From Aphelidium insulamus (taxonomy: Eukaryota > Aphelidiomycota > Aphelidea > Aphelidiaceae): a stretch of DNA of 64,000 nt. Position numbers and translations under genes: made by a program. Within the stretch, counting starts at the first letter, position 1. Each line of letters starts with the position of its first letter. Of the stretch, positions 6,910-61,984 are shown piece after piece. The notes beneath the pieces were generated by a model that saw only the letters and a program-made list of their open reading frames with translations, did no database searches and was not told where the DNA came from. The stretch spans positions 1 through 64,000 of the forward strand of contig JAZDSV010000002.1 of assembly GCA_036784855.1 (NCBI GenBank), read 5' to 3'.

Positions 6910-8779
6910 ATGGAGATTACTGGTCATATGAACACCGCGGTGGTGACGCCACGCTTTGGCGTCCCGGATGTCTTCCGCGAAGAGCACCTGGCGCTACAAA
7001 AGCAAACCGCCAGGAAGGCTGAGCTTTGGGCTCGAGCGATGTTGAACTACCGCAACCAAGAAGAAGAACTCCGTCGGCTGAAAGGGGCAAGCACGGGAAC
7101 CGGCGTCGATTTCGCCGGACCAACAACCGCGCTGGCGCAGACGCGCGCCCTGGCCGACGAGGCTGGTGACGAATGGCGAGTGAGCAACACTCGCGCCGCC
7201 AACATGCTACGTGACATGGAGGCGATGCGTGCATCCGAGCGTGCGAACAAGATGTTCGAACGGGAGGCACAAGACAGTCGCGGTTCGACTGGTGTGGGCG
7301 GCAATCCGTTTGTAGACGAGCAGGCGGACGCGTTGCGTCAAAGAAATATCGATGCGGCCCGAGTGCCCACAAATCTGCCAAAGTACGCCCGTGGGCGGAA
7401 GGACGACGGCAAAGTTATGGGCGACCCGAACGAGTTTATTGCCACCTTGAGGCGGTGATGCGGGTGCGCGATTTCCTGAGGAGCGTTGGGCCGAAAATCT
7501 GGTCAGCCAGATGTCTGGCGTTGCCCTCATGGAGAAGGTGGCCGGGTGGCTACCGCGGTCTGGTGACGAGCCGGCTGCTTGGTTCGACTTCCGGAAGAAG
7601 TTTCTGGAGTCGCAACTTTCCGCCGAAATGCAGTGGGTTTTCCGACAAGAATTAAAGTCTGGAAAAATCCTGGCTGGCGAAGACGTACGCGATTACGTGG
7701 AGCGCTTCGAGTTGCTGGCCAAGCGCGCTCCCGGTGTAAGTGATGAGGACCTCGAGATGATATTCATGGAGGGGCTTCGCTCGCGCACACGTCTGGTCGA
7801 GCGGATTGAGGATCAATTGATGGGACGGCGCAGTTTGACCGGCCCAAATCAAATCGCTGTGACGATTGAACAAATTTACTTCATTGCGCAGTCGCTGGAC
7901 GCCAAGGACGCACTGCGTGAAGGACGGCTACGCACAAAGGGCAGCCATGAAGACGCTCGCACGACGACCAAAGGCCCGCGAGAGGCGGCTGCCCGGTCAA
8001 CGACGACGACTTCGGTGACGTGCGGATTCTGTGGCAAGAGTGGTCACACAGCTGCACAGTGTTTTAGCCGCAAAGCGCAGGAGGTACCGGCGGAGAGAAG
8101 CGTCCGTCAGGTGGAGCCCGAACGTGGACGCTATGTGCGGCCGCCGAGGCGACCGGCAGGCTATACACCTGGTGCATGCTGGACGTGCGGCAGTACTGAA
8201 CACCAACGTGGCACGTGCCCGAAGCGCACAACGCCTGCTGCTGGCACAACAGTACGCCAGGTGGTTTCTGGCGCCAACACGGGTGTCCGTCAGATCACTC
8301 ATAGTGAAGACGTCGATGAGGAACCTCTGGCAGCAGAGTGGCTCGACGGATTTCTGCGCAATGACAGTGGTGACAACGTCGTTCACGATCACCTTGTTAA
8401 CAATGTGATCGCAGCATCTGAGACAGAGTGGGCGGCACCAGTTGAAATAAATGGCAAACGACTCTACGGGCTTGTTGATAGTGGTTCGCCCATTACAATA
8501 ATAAGTAGGCGCCTATGTGAGGAGAACGGCTGGACGATTTTGCCTGGCTCTGGTGGCAAGCTGAGTGGCGCCTTTCAGGGACAGGCCGTGACAAGACGTG
8601 GCATCACGCATGTCAAGCTGGCATGTGGTGATAAGATTGCTGACGTGGATCTAGAGGTTGCCGAGCTCAGTGGCAAGACGTCATTGCTGGTTGGAACTGA
8701 TTTGTTCTGCCTGCTTGGAATCACTCTGACGGGGGTACCTGCGGCCTGGCCGGGCAGGCCTCACAAGAGGATGAGCTGA
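6910..8779 (+). CDS. Gag with two CCHC zinc knuckles, plus aspartic protease (frameshifted)
   Basis: The frame opens at ATG 6910, 19 bases after the 5' LTR, and is coiled-coil-rich at first. Two one-base frame changes near 7452 and 7475 move it into a second frame that continues to 8779. That frame contains a retrotransposon Gag core (WFDFRKKF to RDYVERFELLAKRAP), a first knuckle CGFCGKSGHTAAQC near 8022, a second CWTCGSTEHQRGTC near 8178, and a retroviral-type protease motif LYGLVDSGSPITII near 8463. A third frame change near 8745-8765 leads to a short acidic linker before the deletion junction. The changes look like homopolymer contractions (GG to G, CCC to CC). Confidence 0.85.
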
Positions 8780-20280: not shown

Positions 20281-21483
20281 TATTTTTTTGTTAAATTCTT
20301 CTGTATACTCCTGACCCGAATAATTCGTTATCAGGATACATAGCCCATGACACCTCTATTTTTCCCACTAAATTAATTGATATTGCCCTGGTATGGTATG
20401 AAACAACGACAACAACTGTGATCTCATGTCCAACATCGTCACTCTTCACTTTAAATGCTTGAGGCTCCTATGTACAGTGGCACCGTCACATTTGATGCGC
20501 CAATCATGTGCCGACCTTGACCGAATGTAATAAGGGTCAAATATAAAAGCAACTGGGTGGCCGACTCAGGGAGACGCTGCTGCAATAAGGCGTAAATTTA
20601 ATAGTGCTGATTATTCCCATTGTACAGTAACTTGGCCACTACAATCCAATCGCGTAGTTATAGATTGCTCTTTGACACATTAGAATCACGCTGCATAAAC
20701 TGCACGTGTAAATAGCATATCATCTTACAGTTAAACCCAACACCGTTACCTAAAACACCAGTCTCACTCACTTACTCTCCAACGCGCCATGCCTGCCTTC
20801 TCACCGGCCCAGTAATCATAACTACGTGTACCCGGACGACTCGACGCGCACAGCTCGCACTGGATCCACAGTTTTGCCAATGTATTTGCCGGCACCTCTA
20901 GCACACTCATATATATCATATTGCACACTGCCATTGGTAAAGCTGCAATATTCCCACAAGCTGCTCCAACTAGTATGCTGGAAATGAGATCACACTAATC
21001 AACAGACTGCATATTGATTTCTGAACAATATGCAGTCTTTTAGCAAATCATCTTGTCAAAGTTGTTGTTAAAGCCTAGTTTATTAATCTGCAATGCCTAT
21101 GTAAGAAATCTGCTTTAAAAGTAAGGTGGTGGATCTCAACAATATTGGCACCCTACCAGCATTGCTTTTTCTTTTTTTGGGTTGTAGTACCACGTCACAA
21201 ATTAGGCCCCTCAGCACCAAGTCAACTTAATCCTCAGCCCTTCCATTAAGTGACAATTATATCATGCTTACCCATACACTTTGTAAATTCCACGGGAGGA
21301 AGCATCCACGTGTTACACACGGGACATGGTCAGCGCAACCACGGTGCTTTCAAACGACCCCTGGAATCCCATCCTTTGAAGGCCAAGCTAGGGCGTCATT
21401 GTGAATACCTATGCTGCCTGCACACCTCGCAGTGCTCTGAAAGCTGTGCTGTATAATATAAGTTAAACTGCCATCATACAACA
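20281..21483. other. Intergenic, about 1.2 kb, with a pseudogene fragment
   Basis: Apart from the pseudogene fragment at 20770-20910 I see no gene. A C/T-rich run (ctttttctttttttgg) lies near 21168. Confidence 0.4.
20770..20910 (+). pseudogene. Fragment related to exon 1 of the 44639 gene
   Basis: The stretch matches the leader and exon 1 of the gene at 44639: the start context cgccatgcctgccttct, then cgtgtacccggacgactc, then a gcactggatcc segment matching gctggatccgcag, and gccggcacc. Indels and an early stop (after ATG GCC-type MPAF) break the frame. The similarity stops near the exon-1 splice site. It is therefore a decayed partial copy. Confidence 0.8.
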
Positions 21484-43253: not shown

Positions 43254-44228
43254 TTAGAATTCAAAGTCACACTGCGCACGCTGGAACACGTAGTCGTGTC
43301 CATTAACGTTGGCGACACCGTCCTTCAGCACACACTTCCACTTGTTCTTGGTTCGCGACACCTTTTCCCACTGGCAGAGCATTCGGTTCGCAGTCTCCTG
43401 GTCGGCGGCATCATCGCCGTCCTCATCCTCGTCTTCGTCGTCCAAATCGGAGCCGAGCTGGTCGTCGGCGTCTGGCGCGGCACTTTGCTGCTTCTGCTTG
43501 GCGTCTGCGGCCGACTATAGTGTTAGAGAAAACGCCACGAACTATCACAGTCGTACACATAAGCGCAGCATCCAAATATGCATATATAATATTTGCCCAA
43601 TACCTGAGTAATATCACCGGCTTCGTCTTCATCGTCGTCATCATCATCTACGTTCTCATCGTCTGCTCCGTCATCAAAGTTGCCATCTAGCTGCCGGATT
43701 GTTGCGGGCGGGGATTGCTGCTGCTGCGTCGATGTGGGTGGCTGGTGAGCAAACTGGCAGTAAATACTAGTTGTTGACACATTACGTAGTCTATAGGTAA
43801 TACACACCGACTGAGTAGCAGTGGCCCCGCCGTACAATTGATGCGGTATTGACGAGACAAATGGATGTAGAAGTGGGTTTTGCGCGGTGTACAGCACGTC
43901 GTCATCGTCGGGAGCGTGCAGTAGAAAGTCGGCCGGATTCAGTCCACCATTCTCGTGCGACAGGACACGCGATGCGGCCAGCTTGTGCAGCCAAATCTTT
44001 GCACACATGGCATCTCAGTCATGTGGCTGTGAGCATGGGGGTGCGCGCGGCACTAACCGTTTTCAGGTCCACCAGCACCGACTCGTCAATGCCAGCGTTC
44101 ACAAACTCGCTCTGCACCTTGTCGGCCACGTCATCGATTACAGCGCGGTATATGGCGGTAGTCTGCGCGCGATAATGTCAGGCACTGGCTAGGTTACGCG
44201 CGCCCATATGCCCGCTTACCGTGGCCAT
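43254..44228 (-). CDS. TOA1: TFIIA large subunit (alpha/beta; Toa1)
   Basis: TFIIA stabilises TBP on the TATA box. Exons 44220-44228, 44058-44162, 43808-43996, 43604-43753 and 43254-43514 give 237 residues. The N-terminal four-helix-bundle region reads AIYRAVIDDVADKVQSEFVN, ESVLVDLKTIWLHKLAASRV. A Gln/acidic linker follows (with DDDDDDEDEAGD). The C-terminal beta-barrel region reads MLCQWEKVSRTKNKWKCVLK, DGVANVNGHDYVFQRAQCDF, ending EF. All five pieces join in frame with GT-AG introns. Only the first three codons are in exon 1. Confidence 0.95.
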
Positions 44229-44638
44229 TGACGCAGGCGCTTAAAATCAGCTGATGGTTGCCCGGGCCTTGTCTCAAAAAAAAAGTCCTTATAGTCGCCA
44301 AATCATATTATAAAAGCGCCCGACAACTAATTTACAAAAATGTGCACTTTCTGCCCCGATTGGCCCTCTCCACCTTGACGACCAATCCTCGCTCCTGCCT
44401 GAAATTACGTGACACAAACTTCTGCCGCAGCATAAAAGCCGCGCCTGCCTGAAATTACGTGACACAAACTTCTGCCGCAGCATAAAAGCCGCGCGTCGCA
44501 GCGCTCGCAGTCTTCGTTGAGCACATTTCAGCACTCTGCAAGCCACATTTATAGACTGTGTCGCTTGCCTTTCACGTTTTCACTACACTACATACTGGAA
44601 ACACATCGCGCACTCACTCGCTCACTCTCACGCGCGCC
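44229..44638 (+). promoter_or_regulatory. Promoter with 50-bp perfect tandem duplication
   Basis: Positions 44394-44443 and 44444-44493 are identical 50-bp copies. Each holds a CRE/ATF-like attacgtgac word and a TATA-like cataaaagc. They lie about 145 bp upstream of the ATG at 44639, so the gene may have two equivalent TATA boxes and start sites. Confidence 0.75.
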
Positions 44639-46331
44639 ATGCCTGCCTTCTTCATCGGCCCTGTCATCATCAACTACGTGTACCCGGACGACTCGGACGC
44701 GCGTGGTTCGCGCTGGATCCGCAGCAATGCCACGGTTTTCGCCGGCACCACGCACCGTAAGCACATTGTGATTGCTGTGACAGTGCCGTGTAACGGTGAC
44801 TGACAGTGTCTCCTGATGCAGCCGTGGACATCATGATGGTGTCGTGGACGGACGTGGATCGCGAGGTGGTTGAACCCATGCCGACGTGCACCTACATCCT
44901 TGAAGGTCGCGTCACCACGCGTTCTTTCATGCTGGTGGAGGCAAGCCGTTTGCTCCCGCTGCATGGCGATCAGCGTACGTTTACTCACACGCATACACGT
45001 GTATACATGCATTCATACTGACACACAAAACTGCAGCGCCGTTCTCGCCGCGTATCTGTGGTGTGGGCGCGTACAACGGCCCCAGCAACACGGCAATCCA
45101 GATCGAAACGCCTCTGTACGCCAACAGCATTAGTGCCACTGTCACGGTACGATATGCTTTGATATATCTCGCAGTCACTGACTGGATACCGTCAGTTCGA
45201 GTGCGCCTACAACGTCACTCAGTATGGCAACATGGTGGTGAAGATGCATCGCCGCTCTGTGTTGTTCTTCAGCGGTACGTGCCCAGTGTTTTACTCTGTG
45301 TAATAACTAATCTGCTGTGCAGGCTGCCTGGGTGATGTTGTTGTTGCGGACAACACGGTGACAACGATCTGCCTCGATCCAACCGACTTCACGTTTGCAT
45401 CTGTCACTGGAGGACGTAATGTGATTGCCGCCGCTACGCCCGGTGTTACGTCGCCCGCTGCCAGCTCGCTGTGGAACTTCCGCCGACCTACGCAACCTGC
45501 GCCACGCGACTCTGACCCGTCTGAATTGTTGGCCCCGGCAGGTTCGTCTCGTGCAACGATTACATCGTCGCCGCTTCCACCAGCTACGCGCCGTGGTACT
45601 GCGGCAAAAGCTGATGCAATGGGAACCCCTGCTGTAACGGCCGAAGCAACCACTGCGGCATCCTCCACGGAACCGCCATTGGGTTTGTCGGCGAACAATG
45701 ACAAATTTTGGCGGACTTGCTCGAGCAGATCGATGCTCATGACAAAGAAGTTGCTGCAGAGGCGGCACGCACTGCCACAGCTACGCGTAAGACGGTAATT
45801 ACGCTGATTGACGATGCCGATGATGCTGACAACAGTGGTGGCGTGGACAATGATGCCGGCTCCAGCACTCAGCATGCCCAGCGTGCGCGCACCGCTGCCG
45901 AGAAGGGCAAGATGCCGTCACATGACTTTGTTGAAATTGTCGACCATCCACGCACTGCGGCCGAGAAGGGCAAGATTCCGGCACGTGACTTTGATGGCAG
46001 CACGCTTTCTGGGGACCCGAATGTCTCGGATGCGCTTCGAAACTTTCACAAAAATGCAGCGCCAAAACAATCAGCGCGTAGCACTGCTGCGGGCAAAGGG
46101 AAGACACCAACACGCAATTCTAATGCTGCTGGCCCAAGTCGTGCAATGTCCATGGCTGAAGCCAGCTGTAGCTCCTCCTCGGCTGACAGTGGTGTTGACA
46201 CACCTGTAATGCCCATTTCGGAAATAGTAACACCCGTCCCTGTTGCCAAGCGCAAACCGGCGCTTGCCGCCATGGGTTCCAGCAAGCAGCGCAAGGCAGC
46301 CACGCCGCGTCCAGAAAATGTGATCTGCTAA
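44639..46331 (+). CDS. Unrecognised multi-exon protein with OB-like N-terminal domain
   Basis: Exons 44639-44756, 44822-44974, 45037-45146, 45196-45274 and 45323-46331 form the gene. The N-terminal 150 residues alternate short strands (PAFFIGPVIINYVYPDDSDA, CTYILEGRVTTRSFMLVEAS, PRICGVGAYNGPSNTAIQIE, FECAYNVTQYGNMVVKMHRR, SVLFFSGCLGDVV), an OB-fold-like pattern; no family is recognised. The C-terminal half is disordered, Ala/Ser/Thr-rich, with three short repeats of RTAAEKGK[MI]P and a basic end. Near 45703 a run reads gacaaatttt where the frame needs one more A; otherwise the protein stops early. A decayed copy of exon 1 is at 20770. The leader is C/T- and CACTCACT-rich. Confidence 0.6.
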
Positions 46332-47067
46332 CGCTTCCGGATGAGATCACGTACGCACTTACAATACACAGCAATGCTTCATAGTAAATCAATGCTTCCA
46401 CAACAAAAATCTATTTTTTATGTTGTCTGTGTTGCTAAGCCAGTTCGTGTTTAATGTATAGTATACATTACCATTAAGAATACAGTATATGCTACAGTTG
46501 TATGGGAGGGGACAAAGGATGAATTGGAGGCGTGATTGCACACTGTCTGTGTATCACAAGCTCAATCAGAAAAATCTTCACTAAAATCCGTACAGACGTC
46601 AGTATGTAGTGTGTGCCTATTTGTTTTTGTGATCTGAGGTGTCGTACAGGCGGCGTAGCTCCGATTCGCCAGTTGTTAATTTGTGAATGCCCAATCAGAC
46701 AATTTTTTGTTACACTGGCGGAAAAAGTGGCAATCACTGTCAATTATCAAACTGTGCGCGCACACATTCTAAATTTGTGATCCACATCTCGGTACTGCGG
46801 ATCGCCCATATTACTGCATATTTTCTCCACGCATAACACCAACCGGAGCTAAGGAGCAACAGAGCTACAGTATTGCACAGCACGTTCTGGGCGGCGCTCA
46901 TTGCAGTGCACACATCATAAGGTATGCCAATATCTTCAGTTCTGTGCATCCCAAACTTATGTGCGCAGTTTCATCGCACACCGTTACGGCTACATCTTTC
47001 TCCACAACCAGGATTGTTGGGACAGTGACAACTATTGAGTGGCCACGGGTGGCATAGCTGGTATGTC
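46332..47067. other. Upstream flank of the Fanzor gene
   Basis: No gene seen. A near-palindrome aatgtatagtatacatt is at 46453-46469; a related tatagtatacattg word is at 13659. No matching inverted repeat was found downstream of the Fanzor, so transposon ends remain undefined. In the Fanzor frame a TGA at 47026 rules out an upstream extension. Confidence 0.4.
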
Positions 47068-49662
47068 ATGCATCAGATGTGTCACCTGATTACTAATATT
47101 CAGCAGCTGGCTGTCCATATGTCACGCAGACACTTGGAGCCAGTGCCTGGACGGTATCAGACAATTAAAACGCGACTCAAAACCATTTTACGCGCGGAAA
47201 ACGCTGAAGTTACTACTACCACAATTCAGCATGCTGTAACACGCGCCAATGGCATAGTGGTGCATGCATATCAATTCTTGAAGCTCTACCTTCTTCAGCT
47301 ATACAATGACGGGGCCGCGTTTCCACACATTGATGAGAATTTCATCATGTCGGTTATTCGAGTTGTTGCAATTCCGCCATTGGTACGGCATCGTCGTCCC
47401 ACAGCTGAGCATCGGGAACAGCTTGCCATGTTGCGCACATTTTACGACCAGCATTTTTGTGAAATTGCACCAGAGCAGAAAGATTATGTCCATCTAACCC
47501 AGGTCATGCAATACCTTGCAAAACAAATGGCAACAATGTACGATAACAACATCAAGAAACACTTTGTTGAATACGTGGAACGTTTTGTCAATGTTGTGTG
47601 GAACAAACATGCCAAAAGAGCCGCCATATATGCCCAGCATCCAGCGGGGCAACACCGAAAAGCTGCCATGCAAATGATGTGTGCGGAGCTGCGGCATGTC
47701 AAGGAAGATCTTCTTAATCCGGGCCGGCAAATGATGTGTGCAGAACAATACCACACATGGGTCCAGATTCAGCGCCTGAGAGTAATGCCACAACGACGAC
47801 TGCGCATGGATAGTGTCTATTATGATATCAAGGCATCACCACAATCTTACTTGCCAGCAATGATATATATGATGGAGGCAGTTGAAGCAAATAAGCTGCG
47901 CATGTTCAACGTGTTTCCGCTGCGCACCAGTATGGTTCCACGGCACATTCTCTTGGACACTACGGCATTGGCACGCATATGCGGGATAAAACAAGGACAA
48001 CATCTCACCCCCACAAGAAAAACACCGAATATGGGAGCAGCACTTAACTTGAACAAGAAGTGCTTCAAGTTGCGACACAATGCCGATGGGCATCTGAAGT
48101 ACAAGTACACATTTGACTATGAGATGCAGACGGATGGGGTAAGCTGCTCGCTGCTAATGCAACCCGTGGTCAGAGATGCTGCTGGTGATGATGGCATAGC
48201 TGTGGCAGCAGTTGAGGCTGGAGATGCAAATGATGCACGAGGCAATCAAGTAGCCAGTGCATGTATAAATGCAGTGGCAAATGAGAATGCCGCAGAGCAA
48301 GTGGCACTGGAGGCTGGCAGCATCAGCAATGATGAGGTAGCACTCCACAATGCTTCACAAGAGGGTGTGGCAGCTGGTGCCAATGATATGCAACGCAGAT
48401 CTGCACGTGGCAGAGGCAGAATGCAGGCAAGGTCACGCTCACCAATGGACATGCCAGCATCTGCACGTGGCAGATCAAGGTCAGTACATGGCATGGTCAC
48501 ACGCAGTCAGGCACAGAGAGGCAGTAGTCATGTGGCAGGCAGCAGTAGACTGGTGCATAGATATGGCGTGGGAGAAGTAGCACCTGGTATAGGCCAAGCA
48601 GCAGATTTTGGTAGACAAAGATCTGGAGACAGAAGTGGTAGACAAAGATCTGGAGACAGACGTGGAGCACACAGAGGTGGAGACAGACATGGAGCACACA
48701 GAGGTGGATACAGACGTGGTGTACATGGAGGTGGAGACAGACATGGTGCACATGGAGCTGAAGATGGACATGTTGGACATGGAGCTGGAGGGCATGAACA
48801 TGTCAGACATGCTGGACAAGTGCATGCTGAACCTGATGCATACATTGATGAAGTGGACAGTGCACCTCTGCGCAACAAAGACATTGTTGGAATTGATCCA
48901 AATATGGGCAACCTGCTGTACTGTGTGAGTGGTGCTGGGCCAGATCAGACCAAGTTTCGATACACTGCCAAGCAGCGCCAACACATGACACGACCAGAAC
49001 ATATGCGCTATCAATTATTGCACAACCTGGTACGCCCAATTGTTGCCGGACATCCAGTGAAGGAGTGGGAGCATGTCCTATCCGCCTACAACTCAAAGAC
49101 ACTCAACTTTGTGCAATTCCAGCAGTATGTGGCTGCCAAGAGTATTTTTGATGCATGGTGTGGCCCACAGTATGCACGCCCCAACAGCTACCGTGAACTG
49201 CGGCGCAAGCAGTTTAGTTTGCGTCAAAAGTCTGAAGCTATTATGCTCAATGGATTCCGGAACAAGTTTGGACCACCTGCTGACACCATTGTTGCCATTG
49301 GTGACTGGGCACAGCACCAGCACAGGCGCTATAAGGAACCCATCAAAGGCAAGGGGCTTCGCACCACGCTTCGCCGAGGTGGCTATATGGTGTACTTGGT
49401 TGATGAGCACCGGACAAGTGTTACGTGCAGTACATGCGGGCACCGACTGGAGAATCCACCACGACCTCCCATTATTGACTGTTGTCGGCCATACCGCACA
49501 ATCCGCGATGATGAATATTGTGTGCGATGGTGTCCAAATTGTGAGCATCCATGGGCACGTGACAGGAATGCTGCCACCAACATATATATTGCAGCACTCA
49601 GCGCAATACACAATGGTGCACGGCCGGTTCATCTACAGCATGGTGCACATGCAAACCAATAA
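47068..49662 (+). CDS. Fanzor (eukaryotic TnpB-like, presumptive RNA-guided endonuclease)
   Basis: Fanzors are eukaryotic relatives of transposon TnpB and Cas12; characterised members cut DNA guided by a noncoding RNA encoded next to the gene. This is a single exon of 864 residues from ATG 47068; the frame is open from a TTG at 47035. N-terminal segments typical of the family: IKKHFVEYVERFVNVVWNKH, SYLPAMIYMMEAVEANKLRM, FNVFPLRTSMVPRHILLDTT, FDYEMQTDGVSCSLLMQPVV. A basic low-complexity linker (about 430-600) contains seven 9-residue repeats. RuvC-I is VGIDPNMGNLLYCV (Asp610) with KFRYTAKQRQ. The RuvC-II position reads AIGDWAQHQHR with no Glu; Glu780 in LVDEHRTSVTCSTCG fits the shifted Glu of Fanzors. 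The zinc finger is Cys787/790 and Cys822/825. RuvC-III is RDRNAATNIY (Asp832). It is intronless amid intron-rich genes. Confidence 0.93.
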   Translation: MHQMCHLITNIQQLAVHMSRRHLEPVPGRYQTIKTRLKTILRAENAEVTTTTIQHAVTRANGIVVHAYQFLKLYLLQLYNDGAAFPHIDENFIMSVIRVVAIPPLVRHRRPTAEHREQLAMLRTFYDQHFCEIAPEQKDYVHLTQVMQYLAKQMATMYDNNIKKHFVEYVERFVNVVWNKHAKRAAIYAQHPAGQHRKAAMQMMCAELRHVKEDLLNPGRQMMCAEQYHTWVQIQRLRVMPQRRLRMDSVYYDIKASPQSYLPAMIYMMEAVEANKLRMFNVFPLRTSMVPRHILLDTTALARICGIKQGQHLTPTRKTPNMGAALNLNKKCFKLRHNADGHLKYKYTFDYEMQTDGVSCSLLMQPVVRDAAGDDGIAVAAVEAGDANDARGNQVASACINAVANENAAEQVALEAGSISNDEVALHNASQEGVAAGANDMQRRSARGRGRMQARSRSPMDMPASARGRSRSVHGMVTRSQAQRGSSHVAGSSRLVHRYGVGEVAPGIGQAADFGRQRSGDRSGRQRSGDRRGAHRGGDRHGAHRGGYRRGVHGGGDRHGAHGAEDGHVGHGAGGHEHVRHAGQVHAEPDAYIDEVDSAPLRNKDIVGIDPNMGNLLYCVSGAGPDQTKFRYTAKQRQHMTRPEHMRYQLLHNLVRPIVAGHPVKEWEHVLSAYNSKTLNFVQFQQYVAAKSIFDAWCGPQYARPNSYRELRRKQFSLRQKSEAIMLNGFRNKFGPPADTIVAIGDWAQHQHRRYKEPIKGKGLRTTLRRGGYMVYLVDEHRTSVTCSTCGHRLENPPRPPIIDCCRPYRTIRDDEYCVRWCPNCEHPWARDRNAATNIYIAALSAIHNGARPVHLQHGAHANQ
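48610..48798 (+). repeat. 27-bp coding minisatellite, seven units, inside the Fanzor
   Basis: Seven tandem 27-bp units encode a 9-residue repeat, consensus G-x-[QH]-[RG]-[SG]-G-D-R-[RH] (GRQRSGDRS, GRQRSGDRR, GAHRGGDRH, GAHRGGYRR, GVHGGGDRH, then two decayed units). It covers residues 515-577 and ends 32 residues before the RuvC-I aspartate. Confidence 0.9.
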
Positions 49663-50153
49663 GGGATTATTGGAGGCCAGACGAGGGCCAACTCTTACCG
49701 TTGTTTCAACTAGTAAATATACAAAGGGTGTCAAGTTATTTAATGTGTCATTTAGACAGTATCTAAATTGTATATGTCTTTTTCTTCGGCACCAGCAAAG
49801 TCAAGACTGGTTGGAAGTCATGCTGGCGTGCATAATTCTTTTCTCTTTATCCCATACGCCCACTCCACTACTTTCATAGCGCTCATATGTACTAAGTATG
49901 TACATTGCTCGGTGCTTGCCTTCCAAATATTTTTTTTCAACTTTCTCAAGTGGCTCTGCATACCATATTACGATATTGCGACACTGCATTATTGCATGCA
50001 TAACACCCTGAAAGCTGCCAACAACCCAAGCCCCTAGCTGGCAACCCTAATGCGTATCGGTTACACACGCTGGCGGCCGAAACACACAGTCGACACACAG
50101 TGGGCGGACGCAGTTCATCTCTCCCGTAGCCCGCCATCAAACAGGCTGTGCAT
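49663..50153. other. 3' flank of the Fanzor; candidate guide-RNA region
   Basis: No protein gene seen. In known Fanzor loci the guide RNA is encoded at the 3' end of the ORF and its UTR, so the fold and conservation of about 49600-49900 are of interest. I could not define a structure or a boundary by eye. Confidence 0.35.
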
Positions 50154-60406: not shown

Positions 60407-61984
60407 TCAAGACGATGGGTCGGCACGAACGGCCTCATATATGCGCCCAATTGCTAGAAGGGCATCGGCGCGCCGCTTAAGCACGGCCTTGTCCACCACA
60501 GACACGGCGGCCACCTCGTCGGTGGCATCTTCGACGTTCAGCGGCCGGCCACTCAGAAGCAAATCGCACACATTTCTAATGACACCCTCGATCTCAAGCT
60601 TGCTTCCCTTCCACACAACGTCCATGCCGCGCTCCGTCATGCGCTGCTCCCAGTACGCCTTCTCCTCGTCGGTCAGTGGCGGCGGTTTCGTGGCACTCTG
60701 CGACTTGCCCGGAGTGGTATTTCTAGTATCGGGCGCCGCCGTCGCTTCATTATCGGCGTTCAGCTTGGCGAACGCCTGCTGCAGCTGCACGGCACTGCGA
60801 ATAGTGTCGATTGTCTCGGACATTAGGTGTCCCTTCTCGCGCACATTGTGCCACAGTCTCCCGATGCCAAACGGGGTTTCTTCGCGGCCCAGCCACTGTC
60901 GTGCCCGCAGTGTATACGTAAAGCCCAGTGTGTGCAGCAACTCAACGCCGTACGACGCCTGCTTCAGATCCTCTGCTTCCACCGCGATACGTTTCTCAAA
61001 CTCGGCCAGAGCGGCTGCGCGCACCGCCGGCGTACAGTCTGGCGCCACCATTGCCGGGTGACTGACGTAGAAATCCATCTTGTGTTCCAGGTTCCGCGCA
61101 AGACGGAGAACACGCTGCCGCATTTGCCGCTCCCTGGCCTCTGGGCTCACTGTGTTTGACGACGTTGCTCCAGCACCGTTAGCAGCGGGCGATGATGTAC
61201 GACCAGCCGCAGGTGCGGCGCCGTCGGCTGCGTTCAATGTGTCCCCGCCGCCGCCACCACTCTTCATGGCATCGCCCAGGTCCCGCGAGAGAGACAGCTC
61301 GCCAATTAAGTCCACAAACATGTCGCCGCCAAATAGTTGCTGGAACAGCGCCTCGGGGTCAACCAGGCCTTCCTGGCCGTTGATGTCATCGTCGCCGCCA
61401 TCTCCATATCGATCATAGCGCTCACGCCTCGTTGGGTCGTGCAATATTTGGTATGCATGTGATATGGCTTTGAACTATGTATAATAATGTAAGCATACTG
61501 AAAACAATATATATATATATAGTATCGTATATCGCACCTTCTCCTCATTGGAAGCAGCATCCGAGCCAGTATACTTGTCAGGGTGGTGCTTCATGGCCAG
61601 TTTGTAGTAGGCGCGCTTTATTTGCTCCGGGGTGGCCGTTCTCTCCACGTCCAGCATAGTGTAGTAGTCGCCAATGATGGCCCTCTTGTCCCCAGTGCCC
61701 GGATGATTCCGCGTAGATTGACCGCCTTTACCAGCAGCGGGCATTGATGTGGAAGGGCGAACGCTCTGTTGGACCAGCGGGGAGTCGGCGGGGCAAACCA
61801 GTCGACCATACGCGTCAAATGCATCAGTGGCCAGAGAAACATCTAGCTGCGCGGCGCATTTATAGCACTCGACATGCACGGACGTCGAAGGCAACTCTCC
61901 GTCGCCCGCTAGCTCGACGTATCCGGCCACCGCGCAGGCCGGGCACTGCAGGATAATGCATCGTGGTGCCGCACGTGTTTTCAT
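60407..61984 (-). CDS. DnaJ/Hsp40 with DnaJ-X domain (Caj1/Djp1-like)
   Basis: J-domain proteins stimulate Hsp70; Caj1/Djp1-type members carry a C-terminal DnaJ-X domain and act at membranes and in peroxisomal import. The start is ATG 61984 (MKTRAAPRCIILQCPACAVA). A leading Cys-rich segment has two CxxC pairs (CPAC, CYKC), possibly zinc-binding and not usual for Caj1. The J-domain reads DYYTMLDVERTATPEQIKRA, MKHHPDKYTG (HPD intact), then across an intron FKAISHAYQILHDPTRRERY, DRYG. DnaJ-X follows: FGGDMFVDLIGELSLSRDLG, RLARNLEHKMDFYVS, ELLHTLGFTYTLRARQWLG, and AYWEQRMTERGMDVVWKGSK with EIEGVIRNVCDLLL. One GT-AG intron with a TA tract interrupts the J-domain. Confidence 0.92.

Follow-up and report, generated by a model that had tools for sequence, protein, structure and literature searches.

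A Fanzor1 gene as probable 3' cargo of a non-autonomous Helitron-type element in a genome that is most likely aphelid

The stretch of DNA analyzed here (64,000 nucleotides, contig JAZDSV010000002.1 of assembly GCA_036784855.1, called the window below) carries on its forward strand a gene of the Fanzor1 family, which lies in the 3' part of a bounded mobile element. The 5' part of that element contains a second gene for which we use the term orphan (Table 1). The Fanzor open reading frame (ORF) is a single open frame of 864 codons in which no intron is necessary. The first-pass annotation had noted only this ORF as a Fanzor of the TnpB/Cas12 kind, but the mobile unit exceeds it (44303-49713).

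Table 1 Features of the Fanzor-bearing element in the window
Feature	Position	Strand	Remarks
Whole mobile element	44303..49713	+	5,411 bp; host A, then TC...CTAG, then T host; Helitron-type ends
5' terminus	44303..44342	+	TCATATTATAAAAGCGCCCGACAAC...; 13 similar 5' ends in the genome
5' module	44303..46410	+	Common to elements bearing three different Fanzor groups
Orphan accessory gene	44639..46333	+	Splice model: 6 exons, 5 introns of 48-77 nt, 463 aa
Fanzor1 gene	47068..49662	+	Intronless, 864 codons; RuvC D610/E780/D832; TDG 355-357; zinc-finger C787/C790/C822/C825
Out-of-frame stretch, residues 316-326	48013..48045	+	Frame differs from 4/4 sister copies
Low-complexity insert, 220 residues	48178..48837	+	Gly/Ala/Arg-rich; between WED and RuvC-I; 27-bp repeats at 48588-48803
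Putative omega-RNA scaffold and Helitron 3' hairpins	49611..49713	+	Overlaps last codons and 3' untranslated region; ends at CTAG; RNA role inferred
Predicted guide region	49714..49733	+	Host flank adjoining the 3' terminus; predicted from the analogy to SpuFz1 and viral Fanzor1

The window protein belongs to Fanzor1 as judged by sequence, motif and predicted fold. It matched PF07282, the TnpB-type zinc-ribbon nuclease domain, at 37.5 bits against a cut-off of 26.3, which answers the profile check proposed at first reading. Its sequence matches in the PDB were PpFz1 (2.4e-29), SpuFz1 (1.5e-25) and, weakly, GtFz1 (2.2e-10). A family profile was made from a 40-row alignment of the window protein with 39 database relatives (identities 26-40%, hence no database relative nearer than 40%), and when this profile was searched against the PDB (E <= 0.001) the sole matches were again SpuFz1, PpFz1 and GtFz1 (4e-92 to 1e-71). 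These Fanzor1 matches are far above chance. The Fanzor1 motif given by Bao and Jurka in 2013, D-X(125,275)-[TS][TS]-X-X-[C4]-X(5,50)-RD (PMC3627910), is found as D610, a 172-residue gap, T783 S784, C787/790/822/825, five residues, and R831 D832. The TDG motif of the WED domain, a Fanzor1 feature (PMC10711439), is also present, and T355, D356 and G357 are invariant columns of the 40-row alignment. Alignment to SpuFz1 (8gkh, with the chain offset derived by hand) places D610/E780/D832 at SpuFz1 D383/E541/D606 in the numbering of PMC10432273. E780, the counterpart of E541, is thereby the third catalytic acid, and D610, D832 and the four-Cys zinc finger are confirmed as they had been named at first reading.

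An AlphaFold model made from the same 40-row alignment had a predicted template modeling score (pTM) of 0.70, with a predicted local distance difference test (pLDDT) value of at least 90 for 437 of the 864 residues and below 50 for 264; residues 373-586 are predicted to be disordered (pLDDT < 50). The top seven Foldseek matches of the model were PpFz, SpuFz and GtFz chains, all Fanzor1 (E 5e-24 to 1e-16), and a Fanzor2 chain reached just 7e-4. In the model one strand (605-610) ends at D610, another (774-779) precedes E780 and a third (827-830) lies shortly before D832. The relationship to TnpB and Cas12 is therefore borne out by Pfam, PDB sequences, motif, model and Foldseek alike. The model also has the fold of the solved Fanzors that the first-pass annotation had called for, and it is the alignment to SpuFz1 that suggests that the three acids are grouped together.

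Genome searches covered 17.95 Mb in 169 contigs of the assembly, denoted by C-numbers below; the published A. insulamus assembly has 18.9 Mb in 274 scaffolds (PMC10608142). Fanzor loci, grouped by place, numbered 21, some of which may be allelic duplicates, and they fall into group A (six loci including the window), group B (six) and group C (nine). Membership was assigned by the 3' end for five of six, six of six and four of nine loci, respectively, and otherwise by identity to the window protein. A tree of the Fanzor C-terminal part unites groups A, B and C (98/96), gives good support to B and to C individually and has a long branch (1.28) to the window Fanzor; its rows were 34 of the 39 relatives (close relatives only) and eight of the genome's own, with C129 left out. 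The 220-residue insert is absent from those group B and C Fanzor frames that were read.

The ends of the window element are sharp in BLAST comparisons of sister contigs with the window. Copies on C118 and C140 show both ends, that on C96 the 5' end and that on C115 the 3' end, and these four sisters are 98.8-99.4% identical to the window element over long aligned stretches. When the two flanks of the window insertion, or of the C118 insertion, are joined, they match nothing except themselves, so these are separate insertions. The recent mobility suggested at first reading is upheld by these bounded, near-identical and separately inserted copies. No listed inverted repeat links the two element ends, and no target-site duplication was seen at the window, C118 or C140 copies.

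All 13 of the similar 5' ends (one of them a truncated copy) begin with TC, although the search pattern, which tolerated six mismatches, itself started with TC; the preceding base is A in 11. The 3' ends were placed by BLAST for group A and by eye, where copies diverge, for groups B and C. They read CTAG in 16 cases and CTGG in one (CTRR) and are followed by T in 17 of 17, a count that omits two chance matches and a single C46 end and in which the ends on C151 and C164, with a common host flank and small insertions or deletions (indels), are possibly one insertion counted twice. The common flank of these two group B copies suggests that the assembly contains duplicated or allelic contigs. Beyond CTAG the 3' ends are specific to each Fanzor group and look dissimilar by eye. 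One group B copy on C164 (23.8 kb) lacks its first ~12 nt and has TCGTGGAACAA at both ends (23.8 kb and 28.3 kb); in Chlamydomonas, Fanzor Helitrons that are truncated at the 5' end are likewise flanked by duplications, of 7-19 bp (PMC3627910). A ghost 3' end on C82 (70-72 kb) seems to be split by another insertion flanked by repeated CTTACCAC. The sequence (CAT)2, in any register and on either strand, was present in five of the 13 5' flanks (C164, C86 at 208 kb, C98, C94 and C129) against a background of 4.1% of 30-base window stretches (p about 1e-4, post hoc). Such (CAT)n-type flanks may point to a preferred target or to a motif connected with Fanzor.

The first 2.1 kb of the element is the 5' module. 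Seven group B and C copies were tested against it, and in six of these the exons are 95.0-96.8% and the introns 90-97% identical to those of the window: C1, C129 and C164 (24 kb) of group B and C95, C164 (10 kb) and C86 (206 kb) of group C. The seventh, C108, has 68% exon identity. Similarity between groups ends at 46401-46409, and behind this near-same module the group B and C Fanzor pieces are only 39-51% identical to the window Fanzor. The same 5' module is joined to three different Fanzor/3'-end modules. Within group B, the C1 and C108 Fanzor regions are 97.4% identical over 1,602 columns and 91% over 740 more. The 5' modules of these two copies resemble each other less, at only about 71% over 228 columns upstream of the last ~110 bp, and in that same part C152 gave no match to C1. 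Judged from these alignments, group B shows a second module exchange.

The orphan protein encoded in the 5' module had no Pfam match, no PDB sequence match for its first 195 residues and no match among 8000 scored database candidates. By eye, its N-terminal part is beta-rich and its C-terminal part of low complexity. The ratio of nonsynonymous to synonymous substitution rates (dN/dS) between the window orphan gene and the old C108 copy is 0.235 (dS 1.17, 322 codons), a value indicating that the gene encodes a real protein subject to constraint over long periods. The protein is perhaps a single-strand binder of the oligonucleotide/oligosaccharide-binding (OB) type, which is a guess. A relic at window positions 20763-20896 is 82% identical to the first-exon region of the orphan gene.

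These arrangements allow the tentative proposal that the Helitrons of this genome exchange whole 3' cassettes, composed of Fanzor, guide-RNA scaffold and terminus, with the 5' half being swapped freely and the nucleases competing for the chassis. Fanzor, scaffold and 3' terminus would move together since the RNA would have to stop precisely at the terminus; plain linkage may also account for Fanzor and 3' end staying together. If the proposal is true, a single rolling-circle chassis would be contested by several RNA-guided nucleases that differ in RNA specificity, and this would parallel, in a eukaryote, the IS605 TnpB systems on a single-stranded transposon.

In known Fanzors the guide RNA consists of the 3' end of the element plus flank (PMC10432273, PMC10711439), and in insect-virus Fanzors the guide extends about 15 nt past the duplication (PMC10711439). 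The distance from the Fanzor stop codon to the terminus is 51 nt in the window, 82 nt in the group B copy on C1 and 81 nt in the group C copy on C86 (203 kb), a spacing which by analogy would fit where known omega RNAs lie. Folded as single-stranded DNA, positions 49651-49716 gave -10.5 kcal/mol against a mean of -4.99 kcal/mol (z -2.92), and two of 200 shuffles were as good. All three 3'-end types fold into structure; these folds are without shuffle control and the set does not include C164b, in which the exact motif is missing. Positions 44200-49900 had no Rfam match at the gathering score. Ghost copies lack a Fanzor but retain part of the 3' end region, about 100 nt on C97 (559 kb) and about 88 nt on C82; Spizellomyces likewise has ghost loci (PMC10432273).

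Taken together, we think it probable that a non-autonomous Helitron-type (rolling-circle) element, most likely in the genome of an aphelid, carries the Fanzor1 gene as its 3' cargo, and that the nuclease would aid the spread of its carrier. A rolling-circle Rep-helicase supplied in trans would move the element. The omega RNA would be a transcript of the last ~100 nt of the element plus ~15-20 nt of flank and, since it would combine element end and flank, every insertion would yield a guide directed at its own empty site. Cleavage of the empty allele or sister by the Fanzor ribonucleoprotein would be followed by repair that copies the element back in, which would favor retention and spread.

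Several observations weigh against this reading. Two of the 13 5' ends are preceded by T rather than A, and all six group B 3' ends run on with TC, so that the exact last base is uncertain there. Searches for empty sites of the window and C118 insertions matched only filled sites, and no motif of the target-adjacent (TAM-like) kind common to the flanks was seen. Covariation in the putative omega RNA is weak (2 of 29, 4 of 43 and 1 of 36 pairs vary, the copies being too alike), and in the group B copy on C108 the Fanzor frame extends 46 nt beyond the terminus. The state of the group A frames and the missing Rep-helicase weigh on the same side, and it is on these that the two main alternatives draw.

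One alternative is that the Fanzor is a decaying passenger, captured by Helitrons long ago and now without a functional copy, the open window frame being accidental. We regard this as possible but unlikely. The 11 residues 316-326, just upstream of the TDG motif, are those in which the window is out of frame: the four near-identical sisters each read the conserved family form there and the window reads unlike residues, at the cost of near-invariant ones. At position 322 all 39 relatives have Trp where the window copy has Met, and at position 326 the window copy has Leu against Phe in 38 of the 39. All four sisters (C118, C140, C115 and C96) carry other frameshifts, and hence no group A copy is demonstrably functional. 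In group B, C108 and C164 have Asn in place of the RuvC-I Asp. Moreover, the dN/dS of the window Fanzor against the old C12 copy, which is itself full of stops, is 0.81 (stop codons, gapped codons and the stretch 48000-48046 excluded), and the young group A copies have too few substitutions between them to show selection. Selection for activity, which the first-pass annotation had offered as a possibility, is not shown by these comparisons.

Against decay stands the kind of difference seen. The sister copies show 18-24 substitutions and 13-16 indels each, and most of the indels are single bases (one or two alignment-end artefacts per copy were subtracted from the indel counts). As indels are nearly as many as substitutions and mostly 1 nt, which is what a nanopore assembly is expected to give, assembly error is a likely cause of both the indels and the out-of-frame stretch; the A. 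insulamus assembly was built from 9.6-fold nanopore reads with short-read polishing (PMC10608142), and such polishing is weak in repeats. The stretch may instead be a real lesion and therefore the gene cannot be called intact, as it was at first reading; what stands is the open, intronless frame. The window copy also keeps its catalytic residues, TDG motif and zinc finger. Frames were read for 12 of the 21 loci (window, C118, C140, C115, C96, C12 at 380 kb, C1, C108 at 233 kb, C129, C164 at 27 kb, C86 at 204 kb and C149), and among these the window copy alone combines a single full-length frame with D, E and D. In the C1 copy of group B, a frame of 663 aa is open and Asn occupies the third RuvC position. 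This copy may by analogy be active, because GtFz1 naturally has Asn at this position and the D606N substitution raises SpuFz1 activity in vitro (PMC11423790). Note that C1 and C108 have TDS at the expected TDG site.

A second alternative, which we consider rather improbable, is that the element is not a Helitron but another element lacking terminal inverted repeats (TIRs), moved by a different enzyme and perhaps by the orphan protein itself. The orphan module is common to all three Fanzor groups and its gene seems to be under long-term constraint, as this alternative would have it, and the assembly yielded no Helitron Rep-helicase (RepHel). RepHel is absent from the element itself. Searches of the genome with PF14214 and with PF20209, which we take to be a Helitron marker, gave no match, but control searches were equally silent, and about 1 Mb of the published assembly lies beyond the contigs covered. 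PIF1 matches in the genome numbered 21, and in the DNA around the five that were read no Helitron Rep domain was present (by Pfam for the L077 and L080 ORFs and by eye for the rest). Each of the five was rejected as a RepHel. L079 reads as a cellular-type PIF1, L077 and L078 (C3 and C18) are a repeated PIF1-like gene, and L080 and L081 (C165 and C63) are a repeated ORF ending in a superfamily 1 (SF1) helicase domain. The failure of these searches to find a Rep-helicase, which bears against the Helitron assignment, is why the element is filed only as a non-autonomous Helitron-type element.

The structure of the element nonetheless argues for Helitron1 rather than for an enzyme of another kind. 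Helitron1 elements insert between A and T. A TC end, a CTRR end and a 3' hairpin are the canonical Helitron1 features (PMC3627910), and the window element has a 5' TC, a 3' CTRR, a hairpin just inside the 3' end and no TIR, together with insertion that appears to lie mostly between A and T and no duplication seen at full-length copies. No HUH motif was seen by eye in the orphan protein, and the genome gave no match to a Y1 transposase in a search that gave signal in five of 14 control genomes. A third alternative, that the Fanzor is a domesticated host gene serving the aphelid, to which the open frame and the distinctness marked by its long tree branch might be put down, is very improbable and disfavored given that the gene sits in an element with four further copies whose alignments cover the Fanzor in full and reach the same ends.

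Some of the loci met in these searches deserve mention in their own right. The PIF1-like helicase genes on C3 and C18 are near-identical and perhaps constitute a mobile gene. C165 and C63 are small contigs with repeated long ORFs that have the SF1 helicase near the C-terminal end and, by eye, a DNA-polymerase-like N-terminal part; they are possibly a viral or large-transposon relic. A viral carrier of the Fanzor was considered and rejected: in a family-profile scan of viral contigs 12 stretches matched the pattern and none was confirmed as a relative. The window itself also contains, at 7511-8779, a Gag plus aspartyl-protease ORF of a long terminal repeat (LTR)-type retrotransposon (PF03732, PF13650).

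The window DnaJ-X gene (60407-61321) falls in a starred set of four with Amoeboaphelidium occidentale, an unnamed protein and the eukprot record Partr, presumably Paraphelidium, in a tree that took in 31 of 35 DnaJ-X matches. The host is most likely an aphelid, a parasite of algae, and not a fungus in the strict sense. Aphelids are described as a sister lineage to Fungi (PMC10608142), and thus the first-pass description of a fungal genome was only loosely right.

Fanzor1 proteins in Helitrons, of the Helitron2 type, have been known since 2013 (PMC3627910), and the window protein is an expected member of the family. The ends here are of Helitron1 type, and module exchange was not met in the consulted parts of the Fanzor-Helitron literature. 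Full-text searches, with most subscription papers outside their reach, returned no literature on Fanzor in aphelids, none from 2023 on that joins Fanzor with rolling-circle transposition, and nothing relevant for Helitron with Aphelidium (unrelated krill work). A term search of the accessible text of the A. insulamus zoospore expression paper (PMC11767097) gave no occurrence. The present findings add a host that is most likely an aphelid to those that carry Fanzors. This genome could help to explain why Fanzors are kept by eukaryotic transposons. Saito et al. (PMC10432273) suggested that Helitrons and other single-stranded transposons could be helped to spread by Fanzor cleavage at the sister chromosome. 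A small genome with ~21 Fanzor loci, one Helitron chassis that bears three Fanzor groups, and several copies of very recent origin suits a direct test, in which one could ask whether flank-derived guides are made and whether these guides match empty sites.

The logic proposed for this element is that of the IS200/IS605 TnpB systems, in which a guide derived from the right end plus flank is proposed to direct cutting of the empty site and so to keep the element (PMC10432273). Unlike those systems, the carrier is eukaryotic and the aphelid genome gave no TnpA-type Y1 transposase match. The window Fanzor has the same fold, RuvC triad and zinc finger as SpuFz1 of Spizellomyces punctatus and PpFz1 of Parasitella parasitica. 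It also reads DPN at RuvC-I, as does SpuFz1, whereas its 220-residue insert before RuvC-I sits elsewhere than the PpFz1 RuvC insertion. The SpuFz1 element, SPu-1, has 33-bp TIRs (PMC3627910) and the window element has none. Close parallels are also CRe-1, CRe-2 and CRe-3 of Chlamydomonas reinhardtii, which are likewise Fanzor1 genes on non-autonomous Helitrons and which have 5'-truncated copies with short duplications (PMC3627910), as does the one such copy found here on C164. However, the CRe elements are Helitron2, with two hairpins, insertion after TTTT and 5 or 10 exons (PMC3627910), whereas the window element has Helitron1-type TC...CTAG ends, insertion apparently mostly between A and T, an intronless Fanzor and the additional orphan gene.

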